From Burkholderiaceae bacterium (GTDB lineage: Bacteria; Pseudomonadota; Gammaproteobacteria; Burkholderiales; Burkholderiaceae_F), in contig JALHMQ010000023.1 of assembly GCA_022843955.1 (NCBI GenBank), positions 1 through 64,000 on the forward strand: 64,000 nt of DNA, written 5' to 3'. Positions 3,567 through 59,782 of the stretch are shown here, in pieces. A program made the position numbers and the translations under genes. The notes under the pieces are model-generated. The model had not been told where the DNA came from, searched no databases, and worked only from the letters and a program-made list of their open reading frames with translations. The first letter of the stretch is position 1, and the number at the start of each line of letters is the position of its first letter.

Positions 3567-3597
3567 GAGCCCGAAGTTTGCCGTGCGGAGAGAAAAC

Positions 3598-3623
3598 GGA
3601 GATCACCACATGTTGTGATCTCC
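3598..3623. promoter_or_regulatory. 26-bp inverted repeat, candidate operator for the SARP-type regulator
   Basis: Arms GGAGATCACCACA / TGTTGTGATCTCC pair at 12 of 13 positions with no spacer. The centre lies about 44 bp upstream of the regulator's ATG. On the minus strand a GATATA hexamer (plus-strand 3631-3636) sits just upstream and could be a -10 box, which would put the palindrome over the transcription start. That is typical for a repressor or autoregulator site. An mRNA hairpin is an alternative. Confidence 0.6.
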
Positions 3624-4030
3624 TGGGGGGTATATCAGAGGCGCCCTCGCACGGCCGTGACCTCATTTCTCGAAGGAGTGTTCCGTGTCGGACCTGCCGA
3701 TGGCAAGCGGGGGCGGTGTTCTGTCGCGCATCGGTGTTGCGGGTTTCCGCCAGGAGCTAAGGGCACAGTTATGCACACAGACGATTCCACGGATCGCGCG
3801 CTGTTGCGCCGAGTACACGCTCGGTTGAGTCGCTGCTTACGTGGCGCAGTGGATCCGGGCGGCTGGTGGCTGTGCTCCGGCCGGAGGCGGCGGCCCCGGT
3901 GTGCCACGGCTTGTCTCGCTGCCAACGACGCATTGAATCGTGCAGTCCGTTGCCGCGAGCGCTCCGCCCGAGACCTTTGGCGGCGATCACCCAGCTTCGC
4001 GACTAGCTTCCACTGACAGGAGAACAGGTC
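3624..4030. other. divergent intergenic region
   Basis: This region lies between the minus-strand regulator and the plus-strand lipoprotein gene and should hold the lipoprotein promoter. A small plus-strand frame starting with ATG at 3770 runs to about 4016, but its product is Arg/Cys-rich and unlike any family I know, so it is not called. The end carries an AGGAGA ribosome-binding sequence ahead of 4031. Confidence 0.45.
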
Positions 4031-5563
4031 ATGCCACGCTCGACACGCCAGACAGTTGCTCTCTTTGCCCTTGGCCTGACGTTGGCTGCCTGCGGTGGAG
4101 GTGGCGACAGTCCAGCCCCCGCGCCCAGTCCGCCACCGCCTCCGCCTCCTTCTTCGGCAGCCAGCGTGACCGTCGCGCCCGCATCGTCGACCGACTGGTG
4201 GGGCTACGACGTTTCGCTGTCCGCCGTGGTCCGCGACGCCAACAACACCGTCATCAGCCCGCCGCCGGCGCTGACGTGGACCTCGAGCGCCGATCCGGTG
4301 GCCACCGTGACCTCGGCCGGACTGGTAACGCTCCTGCGGCAGGGCACCGCGACGATCCGCGCTGCAGCCTCGGGGGCGGTCGCCGGAACGGCCACGGTCA
4401 CCGTGCGTGGGCTGACCACGCTTGGGCGCGGCACGCAGGACACCCAGTGCGCCACGTCGGACGACCGCGTCCAGATTCTCTGCTGGGGCTCTTCCGGGGT
4501 GGCCACACAGCCCAGGATCCCCAATCCAAGCGCACAGTCCAGCTACGCGCAGCCGACGCCGATCGTCCGTGGTGCGATTCCGGCCGACGCTCGCATCAGG
4601 CAGATCGCGCTCTCCACGTTCCATGCCTGCGCGCTGACGGAAGCCGGTCAGGCCTACTGCTGGGGCGATGGTGCCGGCGGCAAGCTGGGCGCCGGCAATG
4701 TGGACGACGTGACCGCCCCGGTGGCTGTGTTGGCCGGTGAAATCCCGACCGGCGTCACGCTGACCAGCATTGGCCTTGCGCCCACCTACAGCTGCGCCAC
4801 AGCCAGCAACGGCCTGATGTACTGCTGGGGCAGCAGCGGCGATCTGCCCGTGCCCGGCGCGAACACGACAGCGATCTTCAGCTCGCCGCGTCTGGCGAGC
4901 CAGGGCCAGATTCCCGCGGGCGTGCGGCTCGTGTCCACCGCGCCGACGCTTAACGGTGGCGTGATGCTGGGCGACGATGGCCGCGCCTACCGCTGGGGCA
5001 CCGGTGCACCCACCCCCGTGCCGGTTGCGCAAGGGCAGATCCCAACCAACGTACGGCTGGTTCAGATCAGCGCGGATGACAACTTCGCCTGCGGCGTGGG
5101 GGATGACGGTCGTGTGTACTGCTGGGGCTCCGGCTTCGGGCGACGGTTCGGCGTCAACGACACCACGTTCCGCTCGAACAGCACGCCGCTGGTCGTTGCG
5201 CAAGGCGCCATACCGGCTGGCGTGCGCCTGACGGCCGTGACGGTCGGCGGCATCGCCATCTCGAACTGCGCGATTGCCGACGATGGAAACGTCTACTGTT
5301 GGGGCGAGGGCTATCAGGGCTCGCTAGGCAACGGCGTGCTGACCGACAACACCGCCTTGACGCCGATCCGCGTGCTCGACGGTCAGCGTCCGGCCGGTGT
5401 GCGGCCGCTGCATGTGTCCTGTGGCCAGTATCACTGCATCGTGCTGGGCGACGATGGTCGTGGCTACGCATGGGGCTTCAACCAGGGCAGCGCACTGTCG
5501 TTGCCGTCGACCACGAACGCCGTCGCGCAGCCGACCCTGATGACCCGACCGAACCGGGACTGA
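4031..5563 (+). CDS. RCC1-like beta-propeller lipoprotein with Big-2-like domain
   Basis: A 510-residue secreted lipoprotein. A hydrophobic signal ends in the lipobox LAAC (Cys21), followed by a Gly/Ser/Pro linker with a run of prolines. A bacterial Ig-like (Big_2-type) domain covers ~45-125 with the usual TWTSSAD and GTATITV-like strands. From ~135 on, seven repeats each contain a C/R/A-W-G core (CWGSSG, CWGDGA, CWGSSG, RWGTGA, CWGSGF, CWGEGY, AWGFNQ), which fits a seven-bladed RCC1/BLIP-II-type propeller. Paired cysteines recur in most blades and suggest disulfides. The protein is probably anchored in the outer membrane and used for binding or adhesion; the ligand is unknown. The start has an upstream AGGAGA. 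Confidence 0.85.
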   Translation: MPRSTRQTVALFALGLTLAACGGGGDSPAPAPSPPPPPPPSSAASVTVAPASSTDWWGYDVSLSAVVRDANNTVISPPPALTWTSSADPVATVTSAGLVTLLRQGTATIRAAASGAVAGTATVTVRGLTTLGRGTQDTQCATSDDRVQILCWGSSGVATQPRIPNPSAQSSYAQPTPIVRGAIPADARIRQIALSTFHACALTEAGQAYCWGDGAGGKLGAGNVDDVTAPVAVLAGEIPTGVTLTSIGLAPTYSCATASNGLMYCWGSSGDLPVPGANTTAIFSSPRLASQGQIPAGVRLVSTAPTLNGGVMLGDDGRAYRWGTGAPTPVPVAQGQIPTNVRLVQISADDNFACGVGDDGRVYCWGSGFGRRFGVNDTTFRSNSTPLVVAQGAIPAGVRLTAVTVGGIAISNCAIADDGNVYCWGEGYQGSLGNGVLTDNTALTPIRVLDGQRPAGVRPLHVSCGQYHCIVLGDDGRGYAWGFNQGSALSLPSTTNAVAQPTLMTRPNRD

Positions 5564-5727
5564 GCGACGGCGCGGCGAGCCGGTCTCGGCAGCGCGCGCC
5601 TGCCTGACGCACATGCGAGTACCTCGGTCTTGCGCCTGACTGCTTCGATTTCACGGCTTGAACGCGGCGGGTCCGAGCACGAGATACGCTGCGGCGATTG
5701 GTTACACAACGGCAAGGAAGTGAAGCG

Positions 5728-6702
5728 ATGAAGAAGCAACACCTGTGGCTAGCGCTGTGCACGGCGACGCTCGTCAACTGGGCCCATGCAGCGGACGTGC
5801 CGGGCGGCATGGACCACCCGGTGATCAGCCGTTTCGCCGGCTCCCAGATGGACGGATACCAGGAGCTTGGGTTCGAGCAGGGCAGCTTCTACTTGCCCGA
5901 TCCGACCAACGCGGCCAAAGAGTTGCAGCGGGACAAGCCGCTCGTCGTGGAAGGCAAGGTCACCCGGCTGTTGTACCTGGCGCCCAAGGGCAAGACGCCG
6001 CTCGAGGTGCATCGCAACTTCCAGCAGGCCTTGCAGTCGGCCGGCGCCGCGATCAAGACCGCGGTCGATGGCAGGGGTGCCTGGTGGACACCGGGCGCGC
6101 ATTGGAAGGCGAACTTCCAACGCCTGAAGTTTCAGGGCCGATGGGCCCCTGACATCTCGCCTTTCGAGCGCGAGGGGTTCTACCTGTATGGCGTCGTCAG
6201 TCGTGCCGGCTCGGTCTGGCATGTGTCTGTGCTGACGGCCCAGGTCTTTGGGGAGACGGATCCGCAGGCCGCAGTCGCCATACAGATCGTCGAACCGGTG
6301 GCAATGCAGACCGGGCAGGTCGTCGTCAGCGCCGACGCCATGAAGCAGGGCCTGGGCGTCGAAGGCAAAGTTGCGCTCTACGGCATCTACTTCGACACCG
6401 GCAAGTCCGAGGTCAAGTCCGAATCCAAGGCGCAGCTCGAACAGATGGCCAGGCTGCTGCGCGAAGATGCGAAGCTGCGCGTCTTCGTCGTCGGCCATAC
6501 CGACAACCAGGGCGCCTTCGACGCCAACGTGGCTCTGTCGCAGCGCCGCGCCGAGGCGGTGGTCGCAGCGCTGGCCGGCGAGTACAAGATCGATCGTGGC
6601 CGCATGGTGGCGCGCGGCGTGGCCAACGTGGCGCCCGTAGCAAGCAACCGCGCCGAGCCAGGACGCGCGAAGAACCGCCGCGTCGAGTTGGTCGAACAAT
6701 GA
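5728..6702 (+). CDS. OmpA-family protein with DUF4892-like N-terminal domain
   Basis: A 324-residue exported protein. The signal peptide is MKKQHLWLALCTATL... ending near AHA. The middle ~200 residues resemble the DUF4892 family. The C-terminal ~105 residues form an OmpA-like peptidoglycan-binding domain with IYFDTGKSEVK, GHTDNQG and NRRVELV, the expected strands and diaminopimelate-binding loop. The frame is open upstream from 5698, but the ATG at 5728 is chosen because AAGGAAG precedes it and it begins directly with the signal peptide. Likely role: link the outer membrane or an envelope complex to peptidoglycan. It follows the RCC1-like lipoprotein by 164 bp and may be co-expressed. Confidence 0.85.
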   Translation: MKKQHLWLALCTATLVNWAHAADVPGGMDHPVISRFAGSQMDGYQELGFEQGSFYLPDPTNAAKELQRDKPLVVEGKVTRLLYLAPKGKTPLEVHRNFQQALQSAGAAIKTAVDGRGAWWTPGAHWKANFQRLKFQGRWAPDISPFEREGFYLYGVVSRAGSVWHVSVLTAQVFGETDPQAAVAIQIVEPVAMQTGQVVVSADAMKQGLGVEGKVALYGIYFDTGKSEVKSESKAQLEQMARLLREDAKLRVFVVGHTDNQGAFDANVALSQRRAEAVVAALAGEYKIDRGRMVARGVANVAPVASNRAEPGRAKNRRVELVEQ

Positions 6703-37534: not shown

Positions 37535-37975
37535 TCAGCGCAGGGCCGCCGATGATCCGTCCGCCTGCGTTCCATCCCGGCCGGCACTGAACAACTCGTA
37601 GGCGCCGCTCGGACCGGGGCTTCGATACACATATGCGCGTCCCCATGGGTCGAGAGGAACGCCCTTTCGCAGATACGGCCCCGACCAGCGACTGTCGGTG
37701 CCGGGTCGGGCAACCAGCGCGCCGAGTCCTTCTTCCGTGCTCGGGTAGCGGCCGACATCGAGCCGGTACTGGTCCAGGGCTTTCTCGAACGCGTCGATCT
37801 GTGCCACGACGACCTTCTGCTCCGACTTGCCGATCTGCCCGAAGAAGTGCGGCGCCACGAAGCCTGCCAGCAGGCCGATGATGACCAGCACGACCAGCAG
37901 TTCGAGCAAGGTGAAGCCAGCAGCACGGCGTGGGCCGCACAAGGCGCTGCACCGGGTGTCGTTTCGATGCCTCAT
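37535..37975 (-). CDS. gspG: major pseudopilin GspG
   Basis: A 146-residue pseudopilin with G|FTLLELLVVLVIIGLLA and Glu5. The GspG C-terminal signature is nearly complete: YRLDVGRYPSTEEGLGALV, WSGPYLRKGVPLDPWGRAYVYRSPG and YELFSAGRDG. This is the most canonical of the four pseudopilins. The ATG at 37975 shares its A with the epsA stop (TGATG) and has GGGGAGG upstream; a GTG one codon earlier is possible. The direct coupling to epsA ties the machine to the exopolysaccharide regulator. Confidence 0.95.
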   Translation of the reverse strand: MRHRNDTRCSALCGPRRAAGFTLLELLVVLVIIGLLAGFVAPHFFGQIGKSEQKVVVAQIDAFEKALDQYRLDVGRYPSTEEGLGALVARPGTDSRWSGPYLRKGVPLDPWGRAYVYRSPGPSGAYELFSAGRDGTQADGSSAALR

Positions 37976-38823
37976 CACACCTCCCCCGCCAGATCGAACT
38001 GACTACGGCCGAACGAAGAAGCGAGCAGCTTCATCGCGATCGCCTTGGAGACTGCTTGCGCTCGGTTGGACGCCTGCAGCTTGCGCAGGATCTTCTGAAC
38101 GTGGTTCTTCACGGTTAATGGACTGATGCTCAGGATCATCCCGATCTCCTGGTTGCTTTTCCCTTCCCGCACCCACTTAAGGATCTCCACCTCGCGGTCG
38201 GTGACGATTTGTTCACCCTCGGGCAGGTCGGCACCGCGTTTGACTGATTGCCGTTCCGGCGCGAGCGCGCGGCAGTAGGCATTGAAGACATGCGGTGCAA
38301 GCAGCTCGATCAGGTGTCGATCGCGCAGCGTCGGAGCCGTGGGCAATGCGACGAAACCGACGAAGCAGTGAACACCCGCCCCGATCTGGGCGTTCGGGAT
38401 GCCATGCACGATCAGGTCCCCGAGCCCCAGGCTGACCAGTTCCAACGCCAGTCGCCCCTGGGCCGTGCTCGGCACGCCCGGCCCGATCGCCAGAGGCTCC
38501 GCGCCGGCGCCCAGCCAGAGCTCGACCATCTCGGCGGCGAGGCCCTGGCGCGGATGGCACAGGCGTGCGAGCACCTTTGGATGAATAGGCACGTGGTGAA
38601 AATAGTCGAAGAACATGCGCCCGCCGCTGCTGCGCGGCAGCCCGCACAGCAGCATCCCGTGTGGAATCAGGTCCTGCAGCGAGCTTTGGGTCCAGGCGAA
38701 GAATTCGACGCGGCGACGCACCCGCAGCCCTTCGGCGAGCGCTGCCATGAAGTTGCCCGCGTCAACCTCCTCCAGGGAGAGGCTGCAAACGGGAGCAGAG
38801 CCGTTGCCGTCCATGCGCATCAT
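37975..38823 (-). CDS. epsA: EpsA-type LuxR-family regulator of the XrtB/PEP-CTERM system
   Basis: A 282-residue regulator. The N-terminal ~200 residues form the EpsA-type sensory region (MFFDYFHHVPIHPKVL, GVHCFVGF). The C-terminal LuxR/GerE helix-turn-helix covers ~215-275 (TDREVEILKWVREGKSNQEI, LTVKNHVQKILRKL). The domain order matches the XrtB-associated EpsA family. The frame is open upstream, but the ATG at 38823 overlaps the epsB stop by 1 bp (TGATG), so translation is coupled. It likely controls exopolysaccharide and PEP-CTERM genes; the signal is unknown. Confidence 0.9.
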   Translation of the reverse strand: MMRMDGNGSAPVCSLSLEEVDAGNFMAALAEGLRVRRRVEFFAWTQSSLQDLIPHGMLLCGLPRSSGGRMFFDYFHHVPIHPKVLARLCHPRQGLAAEMVELWLGAGAEPLAIGPGVPSTAQGRLALELVSLGLGDLIVHGIPNAQIGAGVHCFVGFVALPTAPTLRDRHLIELLAPHVFNAYCRALAPERQSVKRGADLPEGEQIVTDREVEILKWVREGKSNQEIGMILSISPLTVKNHVQKILRKLQASNRAQAVSKAIAMKLLASSFGRSQFDLAGEV

Positions 38824-40208
38824 CAGTGCGCGTTGGTCTGTCTGAGCACGATGCGAATGGTCTTGAGGATGATCAGCAGATCCAGGCCGATCGACCACCG
38901 CCGCAGGTAATCCAGGTCGTACTCCACGCGCTTTTGCATCTTGTCGAGCGATTGGGTCTCACCGCGCAATCCATTGACCTGTGCCCATCCGGTGATGCCG
39001 GGCTTGACCTTGTGCCGGATCATGTAGCCGCGGATCAGTCGCCGGTACATCTCGTTGTGCGCGACCGCATGGGGTCGTGGCCCGACGAGGCTCATCTTGC
39101 CTTCGAGCACGTTGAACAGCTGGGGCAGCTCGTCGAGCGACATCCGGCGCAGGAAGCCGCCGACCGTGGTGATGCGGGGATCGTCGCGCGTCGCCTGGCG
39201 AATCTGTTCGCCATCCTCGGTCACCCGCATGGTGCGGAACTTGTAGACATGAAACTCCTCGCCATCGAGGCCATAGCGACGCTGGCGAAACAAGACAGGC
39301 CCTGGCGAGCTGAACCGCACCGCCAGCGCCACCGCGAGCATCAAGGGACTGAGCAACGCGATGAGCGCCCCGGCGAGGAGCTTGTCGCTTGCCCACTTGA
39401 TCACGCCGCTCATGCCCGTGAACGGCGTGTCACACACGGTCACCACTGGAATGCCGTTGATGTCCTCTACCCGCGCCTGGATCAGATCGAAGATGAAGAT
39501 GTCGGGAACGAAGAAGATGGACGCAGTCGTGTCCTGCAACTGATCGAGCAGACCGAGCACCTTGGGTTGCGCAGCCATCGGCAAGGCAACGAACACAGCC
39601 TCGACGCCGTTGGCTTTCACGTAGTCGGCGACGCCGTTGATCGGACCGAGCATGGGTCCGGCCGGATCATCGGCCGCTTCCATCGCCTTGTCGTCAAAGA
39701 ACCCGACGAAACGAAAGCCCAGCGTCGGCTCGGCGCAGAAACTGCGCGCCAGCCGCTGGCCGATATCGTTCGCTGCCACGATCACCGCCCGACGGTTACC
39801 GTCGATCGCGAGCAGTTGCGGCGTGATGAGTGGGATCATCCGGTGCGCTGCGTACAGGAGAAGCGGCGTTCCAAGCGCCCAGACCAGCAGCATGTCGGGC
39901 TCGAAGTACGTGATGAACCGCGTCACGTAGCCGAGCAGGAACAGCAGCCCGAACACGATGGCCCAGTTGACGACGACACTGGTGAACAGGTTGTGGCGAA
40001 GCCGCCGCACCGATACATCCCCGGGGAACGTGAGCGAAAACGAGATCAACGCGAGGATCAGGTGAGGCGGTTCGAACTCGCAGTCCGTAGCGGCGCAACT
40101 CAATACGAGAGCCGCGACGATGAGCACAGGCTCAAGCGACATCCGCACCCAGCCGAGAACAGAGACGCGTCCCTGTCCCAGCCCGACCGACTGTGATGTG
40201 ACCAGCAT
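38823..40208 (-). CDS. epsB: undecaprenyl-phosphate sugar phosphotransferase EpsB (WcaJ-like)
   Basis: A 461-residue polyprenyl-phosphate hexose-1-phosphate transferase. Four or five N-terminal membrane helices are followed by a CoA-binding-like domain (AVIVAANDIGQRLARSF). The catalytic sugar-transferase domain at the C-terminus has YKFRTMRV, DELPQLFNVLEGKMSLVGPRP and KPGITGWAQVNG. It starts the exopolysaccharide repeat unit by loading the first sugar phosphate on undecaprenyl phosphate. The ATG at 40208 is preferred over an upstream TTG because AGAGGTG is correctly spaced from it. It is first in the long operon that continues with epsA and the secretion genes. Confidence 0.94.
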   Translation of the reverse strand: MLVTSQSVGLGQGRVSVLGWVRMSLEPVLIVAALVLSCAATDCEFEPPHLILALISFSLTFPGDVSVRRLRHNLFTSVVVNWAIVFGLLFLLGYVTRFITYFEPDMLLVWALGTPLLLYAAHRMIPLITPQLLAIDGNRRAVIVAANDIGQRLARSFCAEPTLGFRFVGFFDDKAMEAADDPAGPMLGPINGVADYVKANGVEAVFVALPMAAQPKVLGLLDQLQDTTASIFFVPDIFIFDLIQARVEDINGIPVVTVCDTPFTGMSGVIKWASDKLLAGALIALLSPLMLAVALAVRFSSPGPVLFRQRRYGLDGEEFHVYKFRTMRVTEDGEQIRQATRDDPRITTVGGFLRRMSLDELPQLFNVLEGKMSLVGPRPHAVAHNEMYRRLIRGYMIRHKVKPGITGWAQVNGLRGETQSLDKMQKRVEYDLDYLRRWSIGLDLLIILKTIRIVLRQTNAH

Positions 40209-40372: not shown

Positions 40373-40960
40373 TCATGTCGCAGCCGTCGGTGTCATCGGA
40401 ACCCGATAGGCAACCACGCGCCGACGGCGCGTGAACAGCACAACCACACCGAGGCCGGCCACCATCAACGCCCAAGTCGAGGCTTCGGGCACCGGCTGGA
40501 TCGCTGCCACGCTGATCGCCGGCGGTGCATCAAAGAAGAAGAGCGCTCGCGGCGCGTCGAGGGCACCAGACAGCCAACGCGAAACCGGCGCACCGCCAGT
40601 GCCCGGTCCGCGTAGAGGTTCGATCATGGAGAACACGGGCTGGTGGCGCACCGGTGCCTCGCGGACTACTGGTCTCGGCGACTTCGCCTTCCAAACAAGC
40701 GTGAAAGTGGGCGCGTCGGTACCCGCGTCTGTGCCGTTGAGGACAGCCATGTCATCCCACGTCAGCAGTGATCCGTCGGTGAGGCGCCGAGGCAGCGGCA
40801 GGAAGGGGTTGATCGACCAAGGCGCCATGGATGGCGACGCTGAGACGATCGCTGCAATCGGGTCGGCAGGCGGTCTATCTGCCGAGGCGGCGTGCAATGC
40901 GGATGTCATCAAGGCGCCAGTGAGAAGCAAGGTCAGGCGGCCGAAGAGAGTCAAAGCCAT
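40373..40960 (-). CDS. PEP-CTERM sorting-domain protein (VPEAST type) 2, with C-terminal extension
   Basis: A 195-residue exported protein with a signal peptide MALTLFGRLTLLLTG..HAASA and a short unrecognised body. The sorting tag begins with VPEAST at 157-162, then a hydrophobic helix, then Arg178-181. Unlike most such proteins it continues 14 residues past the Arg cluster (VVAYRVPMTPTAAT). AGGAA precedes the ATG at 40960. It is the only gene between epsB and the CPBP protease, and diverges from the latter. Confidence 0.82.
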   Translation of the reverse strand: MALTLFGRLTLLLTGALMTSALHAASADRPPADPIAAIVSASPSMAPWSINPFLPLPRRLTDGSLLTWDDMAVLNGTDAGTDAPTFTLVWKAKSPRPVVREAPVRHQPVFSMIEPLRGPGTGGAPVSRWLSGALDAPRALFFFDAPPAISVAAIQPVPEASTWALMVAGLGVVVLFTRRRRVVAYRVPMTPTAAT

Positions 40961-41393: not shown

Positions 41394-42083
41394 ATGTCTG
41401 CCCTCCTTCCTCGCGCCACTTGGCTGCGCATTCTTCCCTTCGCTGTCTTCATCGCGATCCTTGCGCTGCGGGGCGCCCTGCAACCGCCTGAAGACGGCGT
41501 GGCCGACGCTTGGACGATCAGTGAAGCGCTATACGCTTTGCAGGCCGGCCTCGCCGCGGTGATCGTCTTGGTTGCGTGGCGGCACTTCAGTGAGCTCGCG
41601 ACGCGGCCGCGGGAGGCGCAGGCGTGGCTGCTCACGCTGCTGGTCGGCATCGGCGTGTTCATCCTGTGGATCGTTCTGGACGAGCCTTGGATGCGCCTCG
41701 GGGAGCCCGCTACGACCTTCGTGCCGGTCGCTGCCGATGGCTCGTTGCGCTGGGACAAGATCGCCGTGCGATTGGTCGGGGCGGTCCTCGTCGTGCCGGT
41801 CATCGAAGAGTTGTTCTGGCGGTCGTTCGTGATGCGATCGATCGACTCGCGCAACTTCCTTGCCCAACCCCCGGCAGCTACCAGTGCAACTGCACTGATC
41901 GGAACTGCCGCAGTGTTCGCGCTCGGGCACGACCTGTGGCTGGCGGGACTCGTCGCCGGCCTCGCTTACGCCTGGCTGTACGTGCGGACCGGCAACCTCT
42001 GGTATCCGGTTGCGGCGCATGCGCTGACGAACGCCGCACTGGGTGTCTACGTCATTGCCAGTCGTCAGTGGGGGCTATGGTGA
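41394..42083 (+). CDS. CPBP/CAAX-type intramembrane protease of the PEP-CTERM system
   Basis: A 229-residue polytopic membrane protein. The CPBP-family motifs are intact: EELFWR at 138-143 (two glutamates plus Arg), FALGHD at 175-180 (His179) and AHALTN at 208-213 (His209, Asn213). This is the CAAX-protease-related family linked to exosortase loci. The frame is open upstream, but the ATG at 41394 gives a normal N-terminus. It overlaps the EpsL gene by 7 bp. It may process PEP-CTERM tags or a regulator; the substrate is unknown. Confidence 0.88.
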   Translation: MSALLPRATWLRILPFAVFIAILALRGALQPPEDGVADAWTISEALYALQAGLAAVIVLVAWRHFSELATRPREAQAWLLTLLVGIGVFILWIVLDEPWMRLGEPATTFVPVAADGSLRWDKIAVRLVGAVLVVPVIEELFWRSFVMRSIDSRNFLAQPPAATSATALIGTAAVFALGHDLWLAGLVAGLAYAWLYVRTGNLWYPVAAHALTNAALGVYVIASRQWGLW

Positions 42084-43312
42084 ACGCACGCACGGTGCTC
42101 GCCGCCGCGTGCATGCCGTTGCTCTTCACTCCAGCAGCCATGGCCCAGTCGAGCGAGCGGCCGGCCGGCTTCCAGTTGTCGGTCGGTACGACCACGCAGA
42201 CGGACTCGAACTTCTTTCGCCTGCCCGACGGGGTCAACCCCAGCGTCGCTGGCTTCGACACGGACAACCGGCGCGACGTCCTCATCGCTCCGTTTGCAGA
42301 GATCACGGGAACCGCCGCAGGATCGACGCACTTGCTGTCGATCCGCGCCCGGGCCGCACGCGACTACTTCGACCGCAACGATCGCTATGACGCGTCCCGC
42401 TACGATGGCGACGCACTTTGGCGCGGCAGTTTCACCCGGCAGTGGCGCGGCGAACTCAGCCACGCACTGGAGCAGCGAGTCACGAGTTTCGCAGACTTTC
42501 GCAATCCCGAGCGCAACGTGCTAGATGCGAGCACAACCCGCGCGGCGCTCAGTTTCCTGCCGCGGCCGGATACTCGCCTCTCAACCTCAGCGACCGATTA
42601 TCGTGGGCGCAACTCCATCGAGGCCCGTCGGTCGAGCGACTACCAGGTGGGTCTTTACCGCGTCGAGCTGGTCCGAACAACGGCGAGCGCGAACGAGGTT
42701 GCGCTCGGCGCCAGCCGCACGCAGGGTCGCTATCCCAACCGGGAGATCTTCGGCAACGCTCCGGTCGACAACAGTTATGAGCAGGACGTGTTCGATCTTT
42801 CGTTGCAATGGCGGCCGGGCGATGCAACATCGGCGACTTTCCGCGTGGGCTATGCGGAGAGGGAGTTCGCCAACGTGCCCGAGCGCGGATTCGACGGCCC
42901 CACCTGGCTCGTGTCGGTAGCGAGACAACTCGGCGCCAAGACCTTGCTGCGTGTCAGTTCGCAGCGCGACCTGAACGCGGTGGACGACTATGACCGCATC
43001 TACTCCGTATCGAAGGTCCATCGAGCGTCACTCGTGCATAGCCGCAGCCTCAAGCTCTCCTTCGGCCTGGATCTGTCGCGCCAGCAGGTCGACTTCAGGG
43101 GCGACCCGCAGAACTTCGCGACGCGCTTCTTCGGACAGCGCCCGCCTCGCGACGATCGGATCGACGAGGCTCGCATGTCGGTGGCGTGGACACCGCGCGA
43201 GCGAATCCAGGCGCAACTGAGCGCGACGAGGTCGGAGCGCAAGTCCAGCGAGCCAAGCCTGCAGTATCGAGCCACCACCGTCCTGCTTCGCCTTCAGTAC
43301 CGTGCGTTCTGA
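42077..43312 (+). CDS. epsL: EpsL-like outer-membrane beta-barrel of exopolysaccharide export
   Basis: A 411-residue protein with a signal peptide (cleavage near AMAQ) and a long beta-barrel of regularly spaced strands (GFQLSVGTTTQTDSNFFR, LSIRARAARDYF, YQVGLYRVELV, ATTVLLRLQYRAF). It ends in Phe. Length and strand pattern match the XrtB-associated EpsL family, which probably forms an outer-membrane channel or support for the exported polysaccharide. The ATG at 42077 lies inside the protease gene's end (7-bp overlap), so the two are coupled. Confidence 0.85.
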   Translation: MVNARTVLAAACMPLLFTPAAMAQSSERPAGFQLSVGTTTQTDSNFFRLPDGVNPSVAGFDTDNRRDVLIAPFAEITGTAAGSTHLLSIRARAARDYFDRNDRYDASRYDGDALWRGSFTRQWRGELSHALEQRVTSFADFRNPERNVLDASTTRAALSFLPRPDTRLSTSATDYRGRNSIEARRSSDYQVGLYRVELVRTTASANEVALGASRTQGRYPNREIFGNAPVDNSYEQDVFDLSLQWRPGDATSATFRVGYAEREFANVPERGFDGPTWLVSVARQLGAKTLLRVSSQRDLNAVDDYDRIYSVSKVHRASLVHSRSLKLSFGLDLSRQQVDFRGDPQNFATRFFGQRPPRDDRIDEARMSVAWTPRERIQAQLSATRSERKSSEPSLQYRATTVLLRLQYRAF

Positions 43313-44150
43313 CCCGCCAAGCGTGACACGCAGGGCAGTCCTTGGCGCGTTCGCCGTGGCCGCTGTGGCGCCCGGTCGCACGAACGGACTGATGGTCGGC
43401 GAACCACCGGACAGTCCGCGCGCTCGACTGGACGCCAATCGAGCCGATTCACGCTGGTCGGGTGTCGCGAGCCTGTTCATCGCGGGCAGCGTTTACAGCG
43501 CGGTCCTGGTGGCCTCACGGTTTGCCCTGACCGCCGCACATGTACTGCGCGACAACGTCGACATCACGCTCAACCTGAACCTCGACGGAGACCTGTCACA
43601 TCAGATCCCGATACGCAGCGCGCAACGGCATCCGCGCTTCCGCGGACTGGGTAACCCGCCGCCCATCCACGATCTCGCGCTGCTCGAGCTGGCGCACGAT
43701 GCCCCACCAGCCGCGCAGCGCTATGCGGTAAGCGCAGGTCTCCCGCAGGCGGGCGCCCGCATCGAGCTGGTGGGCTACGGAGCATCCGGTCGCGGCTCGC
43801 GCGGCGTCGAGGTCGGGCAGAACGCCGCGCTCAAGCGCCATGGCGCGGCACTTGTGCAGCACTTGCCGGCGAGCGACGCCGCCGCCTTGTGGATGTACGT
43901 GTTCGACTACTCGGCGCGAGCGGTTGGCGGCATCTTGCCGTCCGGGCTTGCGCCAGGCGACTCTGGCAGCGGCGCCTTCGTCATGGCGGGAGACCGGGCC
44001 GTGCTGGTCGGTATCAACACGTTGACCATGCGTCCAGCCCAGGCATCCGGTCCACCCTTCGGCTACGGAACGCGCGCGGCCGGGCAGTGGCTACCGCCGC
44101 AGCGCAGCTGGCTTGCCGAGTCCACGCAAGGGGCCGTTGCCTTTGCGTGA
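43302..44150 (+). CDS. trypsin-like serine protease with Tat-like signal
   Basis: A 282-residue secreted serine protease. The catalytic triad is readable: His80 (LTAAHVL), Asp124 (HDLALLEL) and Ser221 (GDSGSGAF). A twin-Arg-containing N-terminus (VTRRAVLGAFAVAAV) is followed by an apparent cleavage region, suggesting Tat or Sec export. It starts at GTG 43302, 11 bp inside the end of epsL, so it is part of the same transcript. A possible role is processing of matrix or PEP-CTERM proteins, inferred only from position. No PDZ domain is present, so it is not a DegP-type protease. Confidence 0.88.
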   Translation: MRSDPPSVTRRAVLGAFAVAAVAPGRTNGLMVGEPPDSPRARLDANRADSRWSGVASLFIAGSVYSAVLVASRFALTAAHVLRDNVDITLNLNLDGDLSHQIPIRSAQRHPRFRGLGNPPPIHDLALLELAHDAPPAAQRYAVSAGLPQAGARIELVGYGASGRGSRGVEVGQNAALKRHGAALVQHLPASDAAALWMYVFDYSARAVGGILPSGLAPGDSGSGAFVMAGDRAVLVGINTLTMRPAQASGPPFGYGTRAAGQWLPPQRSWLAESTQGAVAFA

Positions 44151-44328
44151 GGCTATCGGTTGCGATGAAACGCACTTGACACATCGCGACGTCGACATGG
44201 TCCGATCGCCCTATTTCGGCAATCGTCCGGCGCGCCTAAGGTGTCGTCCAACGCGCCGCAATCGTCCTTCCCTTCCGCAGGTCTCATGGCGGCGCCCTGA
44301 AGTCCGAATCGCCCTCATCGGAACCGAC

Positions 44329-53344: not shown

Positions 53345-54040
53345 TCAGCCGTGGGGGTCGATTCCCGAGGAACCCAGTCCCGCGAGCCGACGTCGTTGCG
53401 CCGGTGTCATGGCAGCGAGCAAAGCCTGGATGAAGGCATCCTGGGCCGCGTAACTTTGCGGCAGGTCGCTGCCCAGACTGGACACTCGAACCAAAAGGCC
53501 GTCAGGTATGTGCCCCCGCAGCCCATACTGAACCTGCGCCAACAAACGCTCGCCACGACCGATAGCGACTCGATCGCCCATCGTGAACCAGTAGCTCATC
53601 GGCTCTGAGCGCCGGCCCTTGACCGCGTGCACGCGCACCAGCGGAATGCGTCCCACCTCAGACTGCAGAACGTCGGGTGTTACCGATCGGATGCTGAAGC
53701 CCTGCGCTTGGTAGCAGACCTCCTGCCGGTGCGCCTTCAGGCTGTCCGACTGGTCACCACCATAGGCCACCACCAGCATCATCCTCTGGCCCTGCGCGTT
53801 CACATAGGTACGCGTGACAATCTGGTCGTACAGATCATCGAGGTTCGCCTGAACGTCAGGACTGGGAGCGATCGGCACTTGCGTCGGATCCACCTGCCAG
53901 CCATCAAAGGCTGCCGGAATCAGCGTCTCCAACTGAAGCGCTCGATCCGGCTGTGGCTGCGGCTTAAGCGCCCACGACGCCATTGCGCAAACGAGCATCA
54001 ATGCTGCAAGCAGCCACATTCGCACCTGGATCGGCATCAT
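53345..54040 (-). CDS. epsI: EpsI, exosortase B-associated protein
   Basis: A 231-residue protein with an N-terminal membrane anchor (~7-25) and a periplasmic EpsI domain (LIPAAFDGWQVDP, LDDLYDQIVTRTYVN, YGGDQSDSLKAHRQEVCYQAQGF, SYWFTMGDRVA). EpsI proteins always accompany an exosortase and support its function. GGGAG precedes two tandem ATGs; the first is used. It overlaps xrtB by 4 bp. Confidence 0.93.
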   Translation of the reverse strand: MMPIQVRMWLLAALMLVCAMASWALKPQPQPDRALQLETLIPAAFDGWQVDPTQVPIAPSPDVQANLDDLYDQIVTRTYVNAQGQRMMLVVAYGGDQSDSLKAHRQEVCYQAQGFSIRSVTPDVLQSEVGRIPLVRVHAVKGRRSEPMSYWFTMGDRVAIGRGERLLAQVQYGLRGHIPDGLLVRVSSLGSDLPQSYAAQDAFIQALLAAMTPAQRRRLAGLGSSGIDPHG

Positions 54041-54927
54041 GAAGCTCCCTTGGATCGCCAGCGACGGAAAACAAAGCGCTGCAGCAGAACATCGAATGCG
54101 ATGAGAAGCAGCAGCGCGACCACGAACAATAGAATTCCCGAGGCGCCGTGCATGTACCCCTGGCCGGCCTCATCGCCGAAGTGAAAGGTCAGCAGGATCA
54201 GGACCAACACACGGATCAGATTGGCCGCGATGGCGATCGGCAAGATGCTGGCAAGCAGGATCGCGTTGTGCCACCAGCCTGGGCGATGCATCAGGTACAT
54301 GTAAAGCACGCCCATGGCGGAGAGCGAATAGATCGAGTTCAGTCCGGCGCAAGCGTCCGCCACCAGCATCCGGTACTGCCCGACGGTGATGACGACCCCA
54401 TCGCGCGCGATGGGATAGCCAGCTTGGTAGAGCAAGGCTTCTGCCATCCACGAAACCTGCTGCTTCAGCTCCCCGGTGATACCCAAAGTGATGAAGCCCG
54501 GCAGCGGAATCATGAAGGCGAGAAAGAGCAGCGGGAACCAGAGCTTCCTGAGTGTCGCCATGCCATAGATGGCGAGCACAAGCCCGGCGAACAGCGGGAT
54601 GTGACCCGTCACCTCGAACAGCGGCAGATTCTGCGATCGACCGACGAAGTAGAGCAGCATGCCGACCAAGGAAACAGACAGGCCAGCAAACGGCCATCCC
54701 TGAGTGGTCGGCGCGAGCAGCAGTGCGCGTTGCCGCCAGACCAGCCACCAGAAAACGGCAACCACGATGAACCCATGCTCGTATGCTTCCTGGTCCCACA
54801 AGGTCTCGTGCAGGCGCGCATAGGTCGGCAGTACCAAGAGCAATAGACCAAGTGCGGCAGCAATCAACGCAACTCGTTCGCGCGAGCCGGCAGACGAAGC
54901 GGCTGAAGTCAAGGTTGTCGTCGACAT
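54037..54927 (-). CDS. xrtB: exosortase B (XrtB/EpsH)
   Basis: A 296-residue membrane protease/transpeptidase with about eight helices. The catalytic residues of the family are visible: Cys193 (ADACAGLNSIYSL), Arg239 (ANLIRVLVL) and His260 (QGYMHGASG). It recognises and processes the PEP-CTERM tag of exported proteins. Three tagged proteins are encoded in this window (27.2, 40.4 and 44.3 kb). It starts 5 bp after epsG and is coupled to epsI. Confidence 0.95.
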   Translation of the reverse strand: MSTTTLTSAASSAGSRERVALIAAALGLLLLVLPTYARLHETLWDQEAYEHGFIVVAVFWWLVWRQRALLLAPTTQGWPFAGLSVSLVGMLLYFVGRSQNLPLFEVTGHIPLFAGLVLAIYGMATLRKLWFPLLFLAFMIPLPGFITLGITGELKQQVSWMAEALLYQAGYPIARDGVVITVGQYRMLVADACAGLNSIYSLSAMGVLYMYLMHRPGWWHNAILLASILPIAIAANLIRVLVLILLTFHFGDEAGQGYMHGASGILLFVVALLLLIAFDVLLQRFVFRRWRSKGAS

Positions 54928-54932
54928 GGCAA

Positions 54933-55856
54933 TCAGTAATTGTTGATCACAGCGCCCAAGACCTCGACGCTGTGATCGGTCAGCGTGCTGGCGAGCTGCT
55001 GCACGTCCGACATCCTGCTGCTGTTCTTGCGCGCCACGACCAGGCAGCCGCTCGCGCGCACGGCTGTGGTGAGTGACTCAATGCCTTCGCCGGCGGCCGG
55101 CGTATCGATGACGATGAAGGCGAAGCGTTGCGCCAGGGCCTCCATCAGCAAGCCGAACTGCCGTTTCATGAGCAGTTCCCGAGGATTCTGAACTTTGGGA
55201 CCTGCCGTCAGGACATACAGGTTGTCGAGGCCGGCCACCCTTTGGATCGACGGGACACTGCTGTCTGCAGACAGGGCCGTCGTCAGTCCGACGTCGTTGC
55301 GAAGCCCGAACACCTCATGTATCCGCGGATGGCGAAGATCGGCATCGATGACCAACGTGTCTTCGTCGAGCTGCGACAGCAGCACAGCTAGCCCAGAGCA
55401 GACCCGGGTGCGTCCGTCACGCCGCTGGGCACTGACGATGGCAAGGGTCCGCTGCTCTGGCTCAGGACCAAACCAGCGCAGCACGAGCTGTGAACGCACG
55501 GCGCGGAGGACTTCCGCTTGCGGGCTCGCGTCCGACAGAAGCGCCATGACGTCCTGGCCGGGCTCCCCACGATGCAACGGTTCGACTACGAAAGCCCGCT
55601 GCCGCAAGAGGGCCAGTTCGAGGTCAGCCTGCGCGAGGACGCCAAGTGCAATCGCAAGGTCGCCGAACCGCCGTGGATTGCCTTGCTGCTGCGACAGCAC
55701 CAGATCGACCTGAGACGACTTCAGCTTGCCCAGCTCGACGAGGATGGAGCCGATCCGATAGTCATGGTTCAGGGCCGAAGGACTCGAAGCCGCCGCCGAG
55801 CCAGATGCATCATCCAGGGGCGGGTCAAGGCCAGCCACCTTGAGCAGCCGTGTCAT
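54933..55856 (-). CDS. epsG: EpsG-like chain-length determinant ATPase with degenerate P-loop
   Basis: A 307-residue protein of the BY-kinase-like EpsG family. Walker A' is TLVIDADLR at 167-175 and Walker B FIVIDTP at 247-253. The expected Walker A lysine region reads SAQRRDGRTR (142-151): no GKS/T is present, although EpsG relatives often have GEGRS here. There is no C-terminal Tyr cluster. The ~130-residue N-terminal part resembles the GspE N-terminal/MshEN-like domain that can bind nucleotides. It works with EpsF in regulating polymer length. Overlaps epsF by 4 bp. Confidence 0.88.
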   Translation of the reverse strand: MTRLLKVAGLDPPLDDASGSAAASSPSALNHDYRIGSILVELGKLKSSQVDLVLSQQQGNPRRFGDLAIALGVLAQADLELALLRQRAFVVEPLHRGEPGQDVMALLSDASPQAEVLRAVRSQLVLRWFGPEPEQRTLAIVSAQRRDGRTRVCSGLAVLLSQLDEDTLVIDADLRHPRIHEVFGLRNDVGLTTALSADSSVPSIQRVAGLDNLYVLTAGPKVQNPRELLMKRQFGLLMEALAQRFAFIVIDTPAAGEGIESLTTAVRASGCLVVARKNSSRMSDVQQLASTLTDHSVEVLGAVINNY

Positions 55857-57268
55857 GCGGCCTCCGGTCGGGCGGCAGGAAGAACAGGCAGCTGGATCCG
55901 CCTGCCCAGCATCCTGCGCGACCGCGCTGGCGGGAGAACACCGAACACCGGCAGGCTTGCACCGATCGAAAGATCGCTGGCCGCGCGTACGCGACGATCC
56001 AGCATTTCCATCAGCAAGGCCGCGCCGACCCCGAGGATGGTCCCGAGGACCGCACTCAGGATCAGATTGAGTTTCACACGCGGGCTGGACGGCAGCGACG
56101 GCGGTGCCGCTCGCGCCAGCAAGTACGAGTTGGTCTGGGTCGTCTGACTCTCAAGACTGGTCTGGGCGAAACGCTGCAGGGCCAAGTCGTACACCCGTTG
56201 AGCGCTTTCTGCTTCGCGCTGAAGAACCGCCATTTCGTCGCGCTGGCGCTTGATCTCTAGCACGCGTTCCTTCTGAGCACGTACAGCCCCGTCGATCTCG
56301 CTTGTTCGCTGGGTTACCGCACGATTGGTGGATGCAACCGACAAGGCCGAGGACAAAAGCTCCTCGTTGATGCGGCGCTCGATTGACCGCACTTCCGCGA
56401 CCCGCTGGCGCAACGTGGGATGCGCTGCGCCCAGCGTCTGCTCCGCCTCCCTGAGCTTGGATACTGAGCGCGAGTAGTCCGCCCGCAGCGCCTGCAAGAT
56501 CGGGGACGAAGCGACTTCCGGCACCGACTCGACGCTCGGGTCGCCGTTCATCTCGCGTGCGCGCGAGTCGGCCCGCTGCGATTGAGCGATGACCAGTTGC
56601 TGCGATAGCTCTGCCAGTCGCAGGTTCTCCACATCCAGGCGTTCGTCGTTGGCGACGATGCCATTGCGCTGCTGAAACGCCGAAAGCCGTGACTGCGCCC
56701 GTTCGAGGTCGGCCCGCAAGGCCTTGATCTGCTCGCCGAACCAGCCGGCGTTCTGACGCGCTGGTGCGTTGCGCAGCTCGACCGCGATATCCATGTAGGC
56801 ATCAGCGAAGGCGTTAGCGGCTTGCGCCGCGAACTGCGGATCCGCCGCTGAGAAGGTGAGCGTGACCACGGCACTCTCTCGCGAAGGCTTGACATCTAGC
56901 CGCTTGACGAGCAAGTCGGCGAAGTAGGCCGAAATGGAACCTGTGCCGCCCGTCGCCTCAACGAACTGCGCGGAGGCGGAAGCGCTCTTGTCGATGCCAA
57001 GGCGCTCGACTACGCGCGTGGCGACCCGCTGGCTGCGGATTACATCGATCTGCGTGGCGATGTAGGTCTGCGCCATCGCTGGCGCGGACAAGGGAACCTG
57101 CCCCGTCACGTCGGTCAGCCTCGGCTCAATCACCAGTGCGGCCGAAGCCGTATAGGTGGGTTGGAGCAGATAGGACACGGTCGCGGTCGCGCCGACTGTC
57201 AGAAGCAACAGCCCCAACACCACCCACCCTCGGGCGAACAGGATGCGAAGCACTTGGTAGACGTTCAT
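55853..57268 (-). CDS. epsF: EpsF-like chain-length determinant (Wzz) protein
   Basis: A 471-residue polysaccharide co-polymerase. Two membrane helices (~16-36 and ~404-424) flank a long periplasmic Wzz domain with a coiled coil (~175-370). The second helix is preceded by the Pro-rich PSLPSSPRVKLN, typical of PCP proteins. It should set chain length with EpsG and align with the EpsE outer-membrane channel. It overlaps epsG. Confidence 0.93.
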   Translation of the reverse strand: MNVYQVLRILFARGWVVLGLLLLTVGATATVSYLLQPTYTASAALVIEPRLTDVTGQVPLSAPAMAQTYIATQIDVIRSQRVATRVVERLGIDKSASASAQFVEATGGTGSISAYFADLLVKRLDVKPSRESAVVTLTFSAADPQFAAQAANAFADAYMDIAVELRNAPARQNAGWFGEQIKALRADLERAQSRLSAFQQRNGIVANDERLDVENLRLAELSQQLVIAQSQRADSRAREMNGDPSVESVPEVASSPILQALRADYSRSVSKLREAEQTLGAAHPTLRQRVAEVRSIERRINEELLSSALSVASTNRAVTQRTSEIDGAVRAQKERVLEIKRQRDEMAVLQREAESAQRVYDLALQRFAQTSLESQTTQTNSYLLARAAPPSLPSSPRVKLNLILSAVLGTILGVGAALLMEMLDRRVRAASDLSIGASLPVFGVLPPARSRRMLGRRIQLPVLPAARPEAA

Positions 57269-57334: not shown

Positions 57335-58135
57335 CTAGAACCAGCTTTCCTTCACCGTGATCACGTCATCGGGACGGAGCAGCGTCTGCATGTCCGCCCG
57401 GATCATTTCGGTCTTTCCATCGACACCACGGCGCGTGATGCGCAATCCCCGCAGCGTGCCGCGCGCCGTCACGCCACCACCGGCTGAGAGAGCCTGTTGC
57501 AGCGTCATGTCGCGCTCGAGGCGGAACACCCCGGGACGTTGCACCTCCCCATGGATGTAGAACGACGGCGCTCGATGCGCGTAAACCACATCGCCTGGCA
57601 GAACGCCGGGATCTTCCATACCCCGATGGTCTGGCAAGAAGATCCTGGCAAGGTCAATCTCGATGTTCAGGCGCTGCCCGTCCACGGTCCGACTAAGAAT
57701 CACCGTCTCCGACGCACTGGGCGACACACCTCCCGCGAGTGCCAGCACATCGGACACGGTGTACGGCAGGTCCAACGGGAACTTGCCCGGACGATTGACG
57801 TACCCCAGCACCGCCACCTGTTGGCTGCGAAACTGAACGACGCTCACCGACACCTGCGGATGCTTGAGGATGTCGCGCTTCACGAGTTCATCAGCCAGCG
57901 TTCGTTCCACTTGCGATGGCCTCATGCCGCGGACCGGCAGCAATCCAACGAACGGATAGCTGATCCTTCCCGCCGCGTCCACCCGGGTCTCGAGCGTCAG
58001 CTCGGGACTTTGAAACACCGCGATCCGCAACACATCGCCCTGGCCGAGGACGAACGCATCCCCGGTGTCGGCTGAAGCGGGCGGCGCCACTGCCAAGGCC
58101 AGGCACCAGAGCCAGACCATGCGAGTTACGAGCAT
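57335..58135 (-). CDS. epsE: EpsE polysaccharide export protein (Wza-like)
   Basis: A 266-residue periplasmic/outer-membrane export protein. After the signal peptide (MLVTRMVWLWCLALAVA..ASA) come the Poly_export domain (FVLGQGDVLRIAVFQSPEL, DAAGRISYPFVGLLPVRGM) and SLBB-type repeats (VAVLGYVNRPGKFPL, FYIHGEVQRPGVFRL). No clear lipobox. It should form the outer-membrane exit with EpsL. It is 66 bp before epsF and 12 bp after epsD. Confidence 0.94.
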   Translation of the reverse strand: MLVTRMVWLWCLALAVAPPASADTGDAFVLGQGDVLRIAVFQSPELTLETRVDAAGRISYPFVGLLPVRGMRPSQVERTLADELVKRDILKHPQVSVSVVQFRSQQVAVLGYVNRPGKFPLDLPYTVSDVLALAGGVSPSASETVILSRTVDGQRLNIEIDLARIFLPDHRGMEDPGVLPGDVVYAHRAPSFYIHGEVQRPGVFRLERDMTLQQALSAGGGVTARGTLRGLRITRRGVDGKTEMIRADMQTLLRPDDVITVKESWF

Positions 58136-58147
58136 GAGCGTTCTCCC

Positions 58148-59110
58148 TCACCGAAGTCCGGAGATGCCCTTCTCCATCGCCTTGCCGTCCTGCGCCTTGT
58201 CCGATCCACTGGCGACGGCCGCCGGGGCGGCGACCGCCTTCGCCTCTTCCTGCACCAACTTCGTGTAGTCGCCCACGTACTCGATGCTGGCCAGATCGCG
58301 CAGGCGTTTGATCTCTGCGCGCGTCAGTTCTTCGCGCTTCTGGTTCGTCAGGAACTGGTCGATCAACGGTTGCGCCGCCTTCTCGTCGAGCGGCTGAGGT
58401 TGTGACTCGACCACCTGCAGCACGGTGATGGACCGGGAGTTCGAGAAGGCAGCCATCTGTCCGTCGCTCAACTGCGCGATGCGGGATACGAACTCAAGCG
58501 GGAGTTGTTCCGGTGCGCGAACCGCACCGCTGGACGTCACGTTCGCGCCTGCGTCACGCAGCGCGTTGCCGATCTCAACCAGCGACTTCTTCCGGTCGAT
58601 GTGCGCCTGAACCTCGGGCAAGCGATCGGGCGTCAGGTCGGTCGCGAGTTCGAGGATTCGAAACACTCGCCGCTCTGCGAAGAGGGAGGGATTCTCCTTG
58701 TAGTACTTGCGAATGTCGTCTTCGCTTGGTCGAGCCGATGCGGCCACCCGCTTCTGCAGGTACGCCTGGGCCAGCAACGAGTGGCGAGCGGCCTCGAGCG
58801 CGGAGAGCACCTCCGGATCGCGATCGAGCCGCTGCTCCCTCGCCTGCTGAACCAGAAGCTGCTGTTCGATGAGCCCGTCAACGATCTGCCGCTTGGCAGT
58901 CGCCTGCTGCTCGGGCGCAGTCGCACCGATACGCACCAGCTGCGCGTTGACTTGATGTACGGAAATCTCGTCTTTGTTCACTTTCACCGCGACTTGGGTG
59001 GGGACGGCCTTCTTGTCGGCCACCTCGTCGGACTTTCCGCAAGCGGCGGCAAGCATCGAGACAGTTAGTACGCCGACGAGTCGGCTGGCGTGACGAGCAT
59101 TGGGCTTCAT
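58148..59110 (-). CDS. epsD: EpsD peptidyl-prolyl cis-trans isomerase lipoprotein
   Basis: A 320-residue lipoprotein. The lipobox LAAAC gives Cys24. SurA/parvulin-like N-terminal helices (VNKDEISVHQVNAQLVRIG, DGLIEQQLLVQQAREQ) are followed by a PPIase-like core. This is the EpsD family of XrtB loci. It is first in the operon that runs to 46005. The frame extends upstream to a TTG, but the ATG at 59110 begins the signal peptide. Confidence 0.9.
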   Translation of the reverse strand: MKPNARHASRLVGVLTVSMLAAACGKSDEVADKKAVPTQVAVKVNKDEISVHQVNAQLVRIGATAPEQQATAKRQIVDGLIEQQLLVQQAREQRLDRDPEVLSALEAARHSLLAQAYLQKRVAASARPSEDDIRKYYKENPSLFAERRVFRILELATDLTPDRLPEVQAHIDRKKSLVEIGNALRDAGANVTSSGAVRAPEQLPLEFVSRIAQLSDGQMAAFSNSRSITVLQVVESQPQPLDEKAAQPLIDQFLTNQKREELTRAEIKRLRDLASIEYVGDYTKLVQEEAKAVAAPAAVASGSDKAQDGKAMEKGISGLR

Positions 59111-59782
59111 GAAGGGCTTTCGGGACAAGTGGGATCAGCGATCAAGAAGACTTTAAGAAGCGGATGTGAACCTGAAGTGTCAGCCGACCTACCGACGGAC
59201 GAGTCGCCCGTCGTCTTCACTGTCGGACTTGCCGATGCGACCGCCACCAAACGTGGGTCGTACACGAACACAGGACGAAGACTCAAGGGTTCAGGTGACG
59301 CCAGCGAGGCAGCCAAGGTCGGTGAATGATCCGATCGGACTACACGCTGGAACGATGAGATTTCGCAATCGCTGCCTAGCGTGTTCCGAAGGAGATCCGT
59401 CGCCGCGCTCCACTCGGCAGCGACCGGTCTGCAGGTCGCGCCGCTGTCCGCACGGTGCGACATCCACGCACCTGTCATGAGCTGGTAGCCGACCTGTAAT
59501 GACCATGTACAAAAGACCCCTTGCAGGCAGGTGCGTGTCAGCGATGGCTAGCTCAGACGTGGTCGGAACGTGTGGTCAGACTCCGACTGAGTGTGGCGCC
59601 AGCCGACTTGGCCTGGCGCCTGTCGCGCTGCCCAGCAAAGTATCCGGCACCACCGCAGGACAGCCGAGTCGGCGTGCCATCGAGTCGCGCCCCTTGCCGT
59701 GGTGGGCGACATCTGGAAGCGCGACGCAGCGCGCTTTCCGCCCTGCCGGGCGGCGGCTTGATCCCGTCCAGTAGGAGCAGAC
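59111..59782. promoter_or_regulatory. 672-bp divergent intergenic region
   Basis: This stretch separates the minus-strand eps operon from the plus-strand CapK-like operon, so it should hold both promoters. I see no gene with a convincing domain. It contains an 11-bp direct repeat (59470-59480 and 59492-59502) and, just before 59783, AGTAGGAG as a ribosome-binding sequence. Confidence 0.55.
59470..59502. repeat. tandem direct repeat, candidate binding sites
   Basis: ACCTGTCATGA (59470-59480) and ACCTGTAATGA (59492-59502) agree at 10 of 11 positions and are 22 bp apart start to start, which is two helical turns. This spacing would place two protein copies on the same DNA face. They lie 280 bp upstream of the CapK-like gene and 360 bp from epsD. 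Confidence 0.4.

Follow-up and report, generated by a model that had tools for sequence, protein, structure and literature searches.

Why should an exosortase-B locus carry a gene for a chymotrypsin-fold (S1) serine protease that overlaps epsL, and does the product serve the sorting machinery encoded around it? The question is posed by a Burkholderiaceae bacterium (GenBank assembly GCA_022843955.1, contig JALHMQ010000023.1), of which one stretch of 64,000 nucleotides (positions 1 to 64,000 of the forward strand, hereafter the window) was analysed. Three overlapping genes lie at 41394-44150:

41394-42083, plus strand, ATG to TGA: CPBP intramembrane protease (type II CAAX-like), family TIGR03008 (pepcterm_CAAX)
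42077-43312, plus strand, ATG to TGA: EpsL-like outer membrane protein, matching TIGR03014 below its cut-off
43302-44150, plus strand, GTG to TGA: exported chymotrypsin-fold (S1) serine protease without a C-terminal sorting tail, matching PF00089

A preliminary description of this DNA had placed the two protease genes on either side of epsL, and reading of starts and stops from the sequence bore this out: epsL starts inside the CPBP gene, with an overlap of 7 bp, and the S1 gene starts inside epsL, with an overlap of 11 bp. We hold with moderate confidence that 43302-44150 encodes an active, exported S1 protease whose narrow family is linked with the PEP-CTERM/EpsL machinery; the enzyme would be soluble in the periplasm and would trim or clear exported exopolysaccharide (EPS)/PEP-CTERM proteins together with the CPBP protease. 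The S1 fold and the catalytic triad are present, the family is restricted, with a single exception in the order sampled, to genomes that encode EpsL, its genes recur beside CPBP, EpsL or exosortase B (XrtB) and the window copy has no C-terminal anchor.

The S1 protein matches PF00089 (Trypsin) at 2.4e-8, over the cut-off; no NCBIfam model matched it, and the narrow S1 family of which it is a member has no NCBIfam model of its own. Its triad (H80, D124 and S221) stands in the right order, with a GDSG motif, and is invariant in the 35 aligned family members. An AlphaFold2 model (mean predicted local distance difference test score, pLDDT, 88) matches double beta-barrel structures of the chymotrypsin fold in the PDB, with template modelling (TM) scores of up to 0.76 by target length. 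The family profile aligned with protein C and gave 467 PDB sequence matches, VesB (4lk4) among them; the window protein alone gave no PDB sequence match at E up to 0.01. The neighbouring CPBP protein matches Pfam PF02517 at 8e-19 and exceeds the cut-off of TIGR03008 (209.7 bits against 81). Its residues E138, E139, R143, H179, H209 and N213 are invariant in an alignment across 7 relatives, so that the catalytic residues of both proteases are intact, as had been proposed. The product of 42077-43312 matches TIGR03014 over its full length, but its 209.7 bits fall short of the curated cut-off (275), which makes it an EpsL relative and not a curated equivalog; its identity as EpsL fits the full-length match and the locus context.

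The earlier label "trypsin-like" holds for the fold and fails for the S1 pocket. The residue six positions before the catalytic serine, in an ungapped stretch before GDSG, is Gly in the window protein. The relatives aligned with it have a neutral residue there (Thr, Ser, Ala, Gly or Ile), not Asp. This residue corresponds to position 189 (Asp189 of trypsin), and because Asp189 is missing, specificity for Arg or Lys is unlikely and true trypsin specificity was rejected. The residues that align with the 'SFV' of elastase suggest a narrowed S1 pocket, and from the alignment an elastase-like preference for small side chains seems more likely than cutting after Arg or Lys. The mature N-terminus is likewise predicted from sequence. 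In most members the signal peptide ends in A-x-A or similar directly before a [LI]xxG motif, the Gly of which is invariant in 16 members and at least 90% conserved in 35; the window junction, N-G/LMVG, is a less typical signal cleavage site. Signal peptidase itself may thus create the N-terminus that the S1 enzymes need, in which case no separate zymogen activator would be required.

The distribution of the family was determined in a sample of 399 genomes of the order, in which EpsL was called at E up to 1e-10 and the S1 family at E up to 1e-40, a limit chosen after a gap between 1e-46 and 1e-25 had been seen. Genome lists, the 12 genera and distance counts were compiled by hand. EpsL is present in 113 of the 399 genomes and the S1 family in 23 (28 copies), 22 of which have EpsL (Fisher 3e-12, with genomes treated without correction for relatedness). 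At genus level, EpsL occurs in 12 of 12 genera with the S1 family versus 59 of 158 (p 3e-6), a comparison in which relatedness is only partly handled. Since a PF00089 match of any kind is found in 392 of the 399 genomes, the association with EpsL is particular to this S1 family. The sole S1 genome that lacks EpsL (G158) has its S1 gene next to a TIGR03008 CPBP gene, on the contig of locus L170. At a looser limit (E up to 1e-20) 29 genomes of the order match, 23 of them with EpsL by hand count, and in a sample of the class an earlier profile matched 20 of 369 genomes. Outside PEP-CTERM/EpsL genomes the family is thus hardly found.

Twelve loci came from a search of named genomes with the S1 protein. 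Linkage was counted over 40 distinct members, namely the 35 of the alignment and tree plus L242, L243, L244, L245 and L247; L050, L078, L172 and L210 were dropped as duplicates before the 35-member set was formed, L248 and L249 repeat L165 and L167, and a weak relative (L175) and a second, weak gene of L172 fall outside the 1e-30 limit. Seven of the 40 (the window copy, L173, L164, L166, L168, L170 and L211) lie no more than 1.2 kb from CPBP or EpsL, three more (L171, L215 and L217) lie 3.4-6.3 kb from XrtB, and in L247 the S1 gene adjoins EpsA, with 12 of 40 next to or near some eps gene. In the twelfth of these, L219, an S1 family protein and EpsD share one reading frame (3594-6140) with no stop between them, which is a fusion, a read-through or an assembly artefact. 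Within the order sample, 7 of the 28 copies are no more than 7 kb from CPBP, EpsL or XrtB (rough binomial 6e-9, uncorrected for relatedness), and 9 of 28 are on the same contig as EpsL and within 70 kb of it when the window copy is counted (8 of 28 in the test).

The gene order differs between these loci. CPBP, EpsL, S1 and PEP-CTERM genes follow one another with overlaps in the window and in L173; in L173 the EpsL and S1 genes overlap by 23 bp and no overlap of CPBP and EpsL was found, and the two S1 proteins are 62-67% identical. L173 (JALORC010000190.1) is labelled a metagenome-assembled genome of Planctomycetota, yet its XrtB locus is syntenic with the window, and the contig is likely either misplaced by a binning error or a recent transfer. 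The S1 gene is divergent from CPBP-EpsL in L164 (the same locus as L050, in genome G155) and convergent with EpsL in L166 and L168. In L211 (genome G197) and L170 (genome G158) a CPBP-S1 pair is followed by genes for an HtrA-like PDZ protein and a member of the dihydrodipicolinate synthase family, and no eps genes were found on the stretches read around these pairs. In the two HtrA-like proteins (L211:10108-11208 and L170:5992-7068), the protease domain appears to lack both the catalytic His, with ILTIGYLI at the site of the usual NHV motif, and the usual GNSGG; the protein is possibly an inactive binding partner. The arrangements fall in separate lineages of the S1 tree, the deep branches of which are poorly resolved, and adjacency of CPBP and S1 is found in three lineages. 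The tight coupling to EpsL of two proteases of different class, on which the preliminary description was built, thus recurs in a second species, and in other lineages the S1 gene stands beside CPBP or EpsL in other orientations.

The best reading of the S1 gene is that it acts in the PEP-CTERM/EPS system, since the genes overlap, the family is restricted to EpsL genomes and its members repeatedly lie close to CPBP and EpsL. In the mechanism that we propose, one transcript would carry CPBP, EpsL and the S1 protease, with translational coupling through the overlaps, and the protease would be exported by its N-terminal signal. Signal peptidase would cut just before the conserved [LI]xxG and free the mature N-terminus. 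The enzyme would then be soluble in the periplasm, near EpsL and those parts of XrtB and CPBP that face the periplasm, where it could trim or clear exported EPS/PEP-CTERM proteins while CPBP acts alongside it inside the membrane. Having no tail, the enzyme is more readily seen as soluble in the periplasm than as cargo anchored at the surface.

Several results weigh against such a role. Among 94 regions with an EpsL reading frame, drawn around most EpsL-positive genomes and including the window, 35 have CPBP within 1.5 kb of EpsL and only 2 (the window and L050) contain a member of the S1 family, so that the S1 gene is dispensable to the EpsL system. For 28 of the 40 members, no eps gene was detected in the stretch read, several stretches ending at contig ends. 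The statistics of co-occurrence and linkage are uncorrected for relatedness, and the window/L173 branch of the S1 tree is long and its neighbours do not resolve. Copies that carry a C-terminal tail also adjoin EpsL (L166 and L168), and the tail-less copies are scattered over the tree, with 7 changes. The preliminary description knew of no such gene as a regular component of these loci, and the count of 2 in 94 agrees. That count also shows the gene to be missing from most EpsL loci, an outcome named beforehand as one part of what would refute the proposal; the S1 family taken together, however, is not unlinked. The S1 gene is a tightly coupled, recurrent but uncommon addition to XrtB loci.

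Apart from the S1 gene, the exosortase-B/EPS locus of the window is standard, with the following genes and one non-coding element around the three described above:

37975-38898, minus strand: EpsA regulator of XrtB loci (TIGR03020, 191 bits, cut-off 170)
40373-40960, minus strand: PEP-CTERM protein (PF07589, 6.7e-6)
44198-44217, plus strand: 20-bp non-coding element between the S1 and PEP-CTERM genes, identical in L173
44329-45087, plus strand: PEP-CTERM protein with a VPEAS variant (PF07589, 7.4e-7), the L173 homologue of which also lies downstream of S1
53345-54040, minus strand: EpsI, type B (NF045609, 256 bits, cut-off 220)
54037-54927, minus strand: exosortase B, XrtB (TIGR03113, 302.7 bits, cut-off 275)
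54933-55856, minus strand: EpsG (NCBIfam, below cut-off)
55853-57268, minus strand: EpsF (NCBIfam, over cut-off)
57335-58135, minus strand: EpsE (NCBIfam, over cut-off)
58148-59128, minus strand: EpsD (NCBIfam, over cut-off)

XrtB, type B EpsI and EpsA all score over their cut-offs, which identifies an XrtB exosortase locus. Three PEP-CTERM tails lie on the contig of the window (27186, 40421 and 44992); across the whole genome there are 9 matches to PEP-CTERM and 3 exosortases, of which this contig holds 3 and 1. Three protease classes, XrtB included, are thus found near three PEP-CTERM genes, as first described. The 20-bp element, present in one exact copy in the genome, is identical in L173 while the remaining gap has diverged, and is possibly a regulatory site of the PEP-CTERM gene; when it was considered as a promoter, other 17-base matches in the genome at 3 mismatches were hardly above the control. 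EpsL was found in none of the other 12 genomes of the same family in the order search, the congener G001 included, and the XrtB locus may have been acquired in the window genome or lost elsewhere in the family.

The C-termini of the family bring in the strongest rival explanation. The window copy ends 11 residues past the protease domain and has no PEP-CTERM match, lacking the VPEP motif, the membrane helix and the basic end. A PEP-CTERM tail is recognized by Pfam in 10 of 35 members, and script calls on the same 35 gave 13 VPEP-type tails, 8 other membrane-spanning tails and 14 with none. About half of the members bear a PEP-CTERM or similar tail; a large part of the family thus resembles cargo of the sorting system, and the family may be cargo rather than machinery. 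The window genome holds both kinds, since a paralogue with a VPLPGW-type membrane tail is encoded on the same contig 5 kb beyond the window (G000:C23:69229-69990, L120:9077-10072). This paralogue adjoins a gene for a beta-helix protein (L120:6741-9080). Possibly, and we entertain this tentatively, the S1 protease was once cargo of the PEP-CTERM class: a surface or secreted enzyme, now without its tail, that breaks down external proteins or matrix and does not contribute to PEP-CTERM processing. Its place in the locus would then reflect the gathering of cargo genes there and their shared regulation. Such an origin agrees with PMC3237569, in which PEP-CTERM is described as a suffix that members of one family may or may not have. 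However, the tail-less S1 gene overlaps epsL in two species, and in two others it forms a pair with CPBP at a distance from eps genes, both of which are closer associations than loose clustering needs. All 5 CPBP-adjacent copies are tail-less versus 9 of 30 others (p 0.006, the five representing only three lineages), which is suggestive of a link between absence of the tail and adjacency to CPBP. The coupled form cannot be defined by loss of the tail, because L166 and L168 have tails beside EpsL, and the notion that every tail-less copy is eps-linked was rejected, as L165, L167, L169, L209 and L212-L214 are tail-less with no eps genes in the stretch read.

A wider proposal, which we regard as doubtful, is that the TIGR03008 CPBP and the S1 family form a two-protease module that combines a periplasmic with an intramembrane cut to process or quality-control exported surface proteins; it would have joined XrtB/EPS loci on several occasions and would also stand apart, as in L170 and L211, with the PDZ protein and its seemingly dead HtrA domain. 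An ordered cascade of the kind raised in the preliminary description would start with cleavage of the PEP-CTERM tail by exosortase B, continue with clipping of what is left in the membrane by CPBP and end with trimming by the S1 protease on the periplasmic side. It accords with the presence of all three classes in one locus, with the intact CPBP and S1 residues and with the recurrence of CPBP genes next to S1 genes in three lineages of the tree. This scheme is nevertheless unlikely, given that 92 of 94 EpsL regions have no S1 gene, that the CPBP-S1 pairs of L170 and L211 have no XrtB nearby and that, without Asp189, cutting at an Arg-rich tail is not favoured.

The two-gene CPBP-S1 cassettes of L170 and L211 could also be taken for a sorting enzyme with its dedicated target, in the manner of MrtJ and its JDVT-CTERM partner (cassettes described in a section of PMC11980579), but all 5 CPBP-adjacent S1 proteins lack a C-terminal membrane tail to cut, and the idea, very improbable on that count, was rejected as a leading one. 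Chance neighbourhood through local rearrangement, with which the sporadic distribution would agree, is just as remote and was rejected because the same order with overlap is found in two species with S1 proteins 62-67% identical, and because other lineages are linked too, 7 of 28 copies in the order lying within 7 kb of CPBP, EpsL or XrtB.

To our knowledge, the CPBP protein of exosortase-B loci has no proven substrate, and the S1 protease, closely coupled to it and intact in its triad, is a concrete candidate partner. If members of the S1 family do change between a tailed form that resembles cargo and a tail-less form coupled to the locus, they would show how sorting cargo can turn into machinery, or the reverse. 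Searches of an open-licence library listed no paper that, by title or abstract, describes the S1 family beside CPBP or EpsL in exosortase loci.

Among known systems, DegS and RseP carry out a two-step regulated intramembrane proteolysis and likewise combine a periplasmic S1-fold protease with an intramembrane one, whereas here the intramembrane protease is of another class, the S1 protein has no PDZ domain and no anti-sigma factor was seen. The Vibrio Ves proteases are linked to rhombosortase. VesB (4lk4) and VesC, with their GlyGly-CTERM tails, resemble the present family as exported S1 proteases served by a C-terminal sorting system; in contrast, the window copy has no sorting tail, and its tailed relatives use PEP-CTERM rather than GlyGly-CTERM. 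Secreted trypsin-like proteases with GlyGly-CTERM tails are described in PMC3237569. The MrtX/MrtJ myxosortases share the CPBP family, the E, E, H and N residues (positions that a section of PMC11980579 names for MrtX and that are among the invariant residues of the window CPBP) and the two-gene cassettes; here, however, the partner is an intact-triad protease without a tail. Links between CPBP proteases and exosortases are already known, from the EpsH-CAAX fusions described by Haft and colleagues (in a passage of PMC1569441) and from TIGR03008 and TIGR04162 in NCBIfam. TIGR04162 (exosortase E/protease) is an exosortase fused to a CPBP domain, the protease half of which the window CPBP also matches (3e-21), whereas in the window the two are separate genes and an S1 protease is added. 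The XrtB EPS loci with TIGR03008 CPBP and EpsL (TIGR03014) agree with the window in a CPBP above its cut-off and in the presence of EpsL, XrtB, EpsI, EpsA and EpsD-G; the window differs from them in an EpsL below its cut-off and in the additional S1 gene that overlaps epsL.

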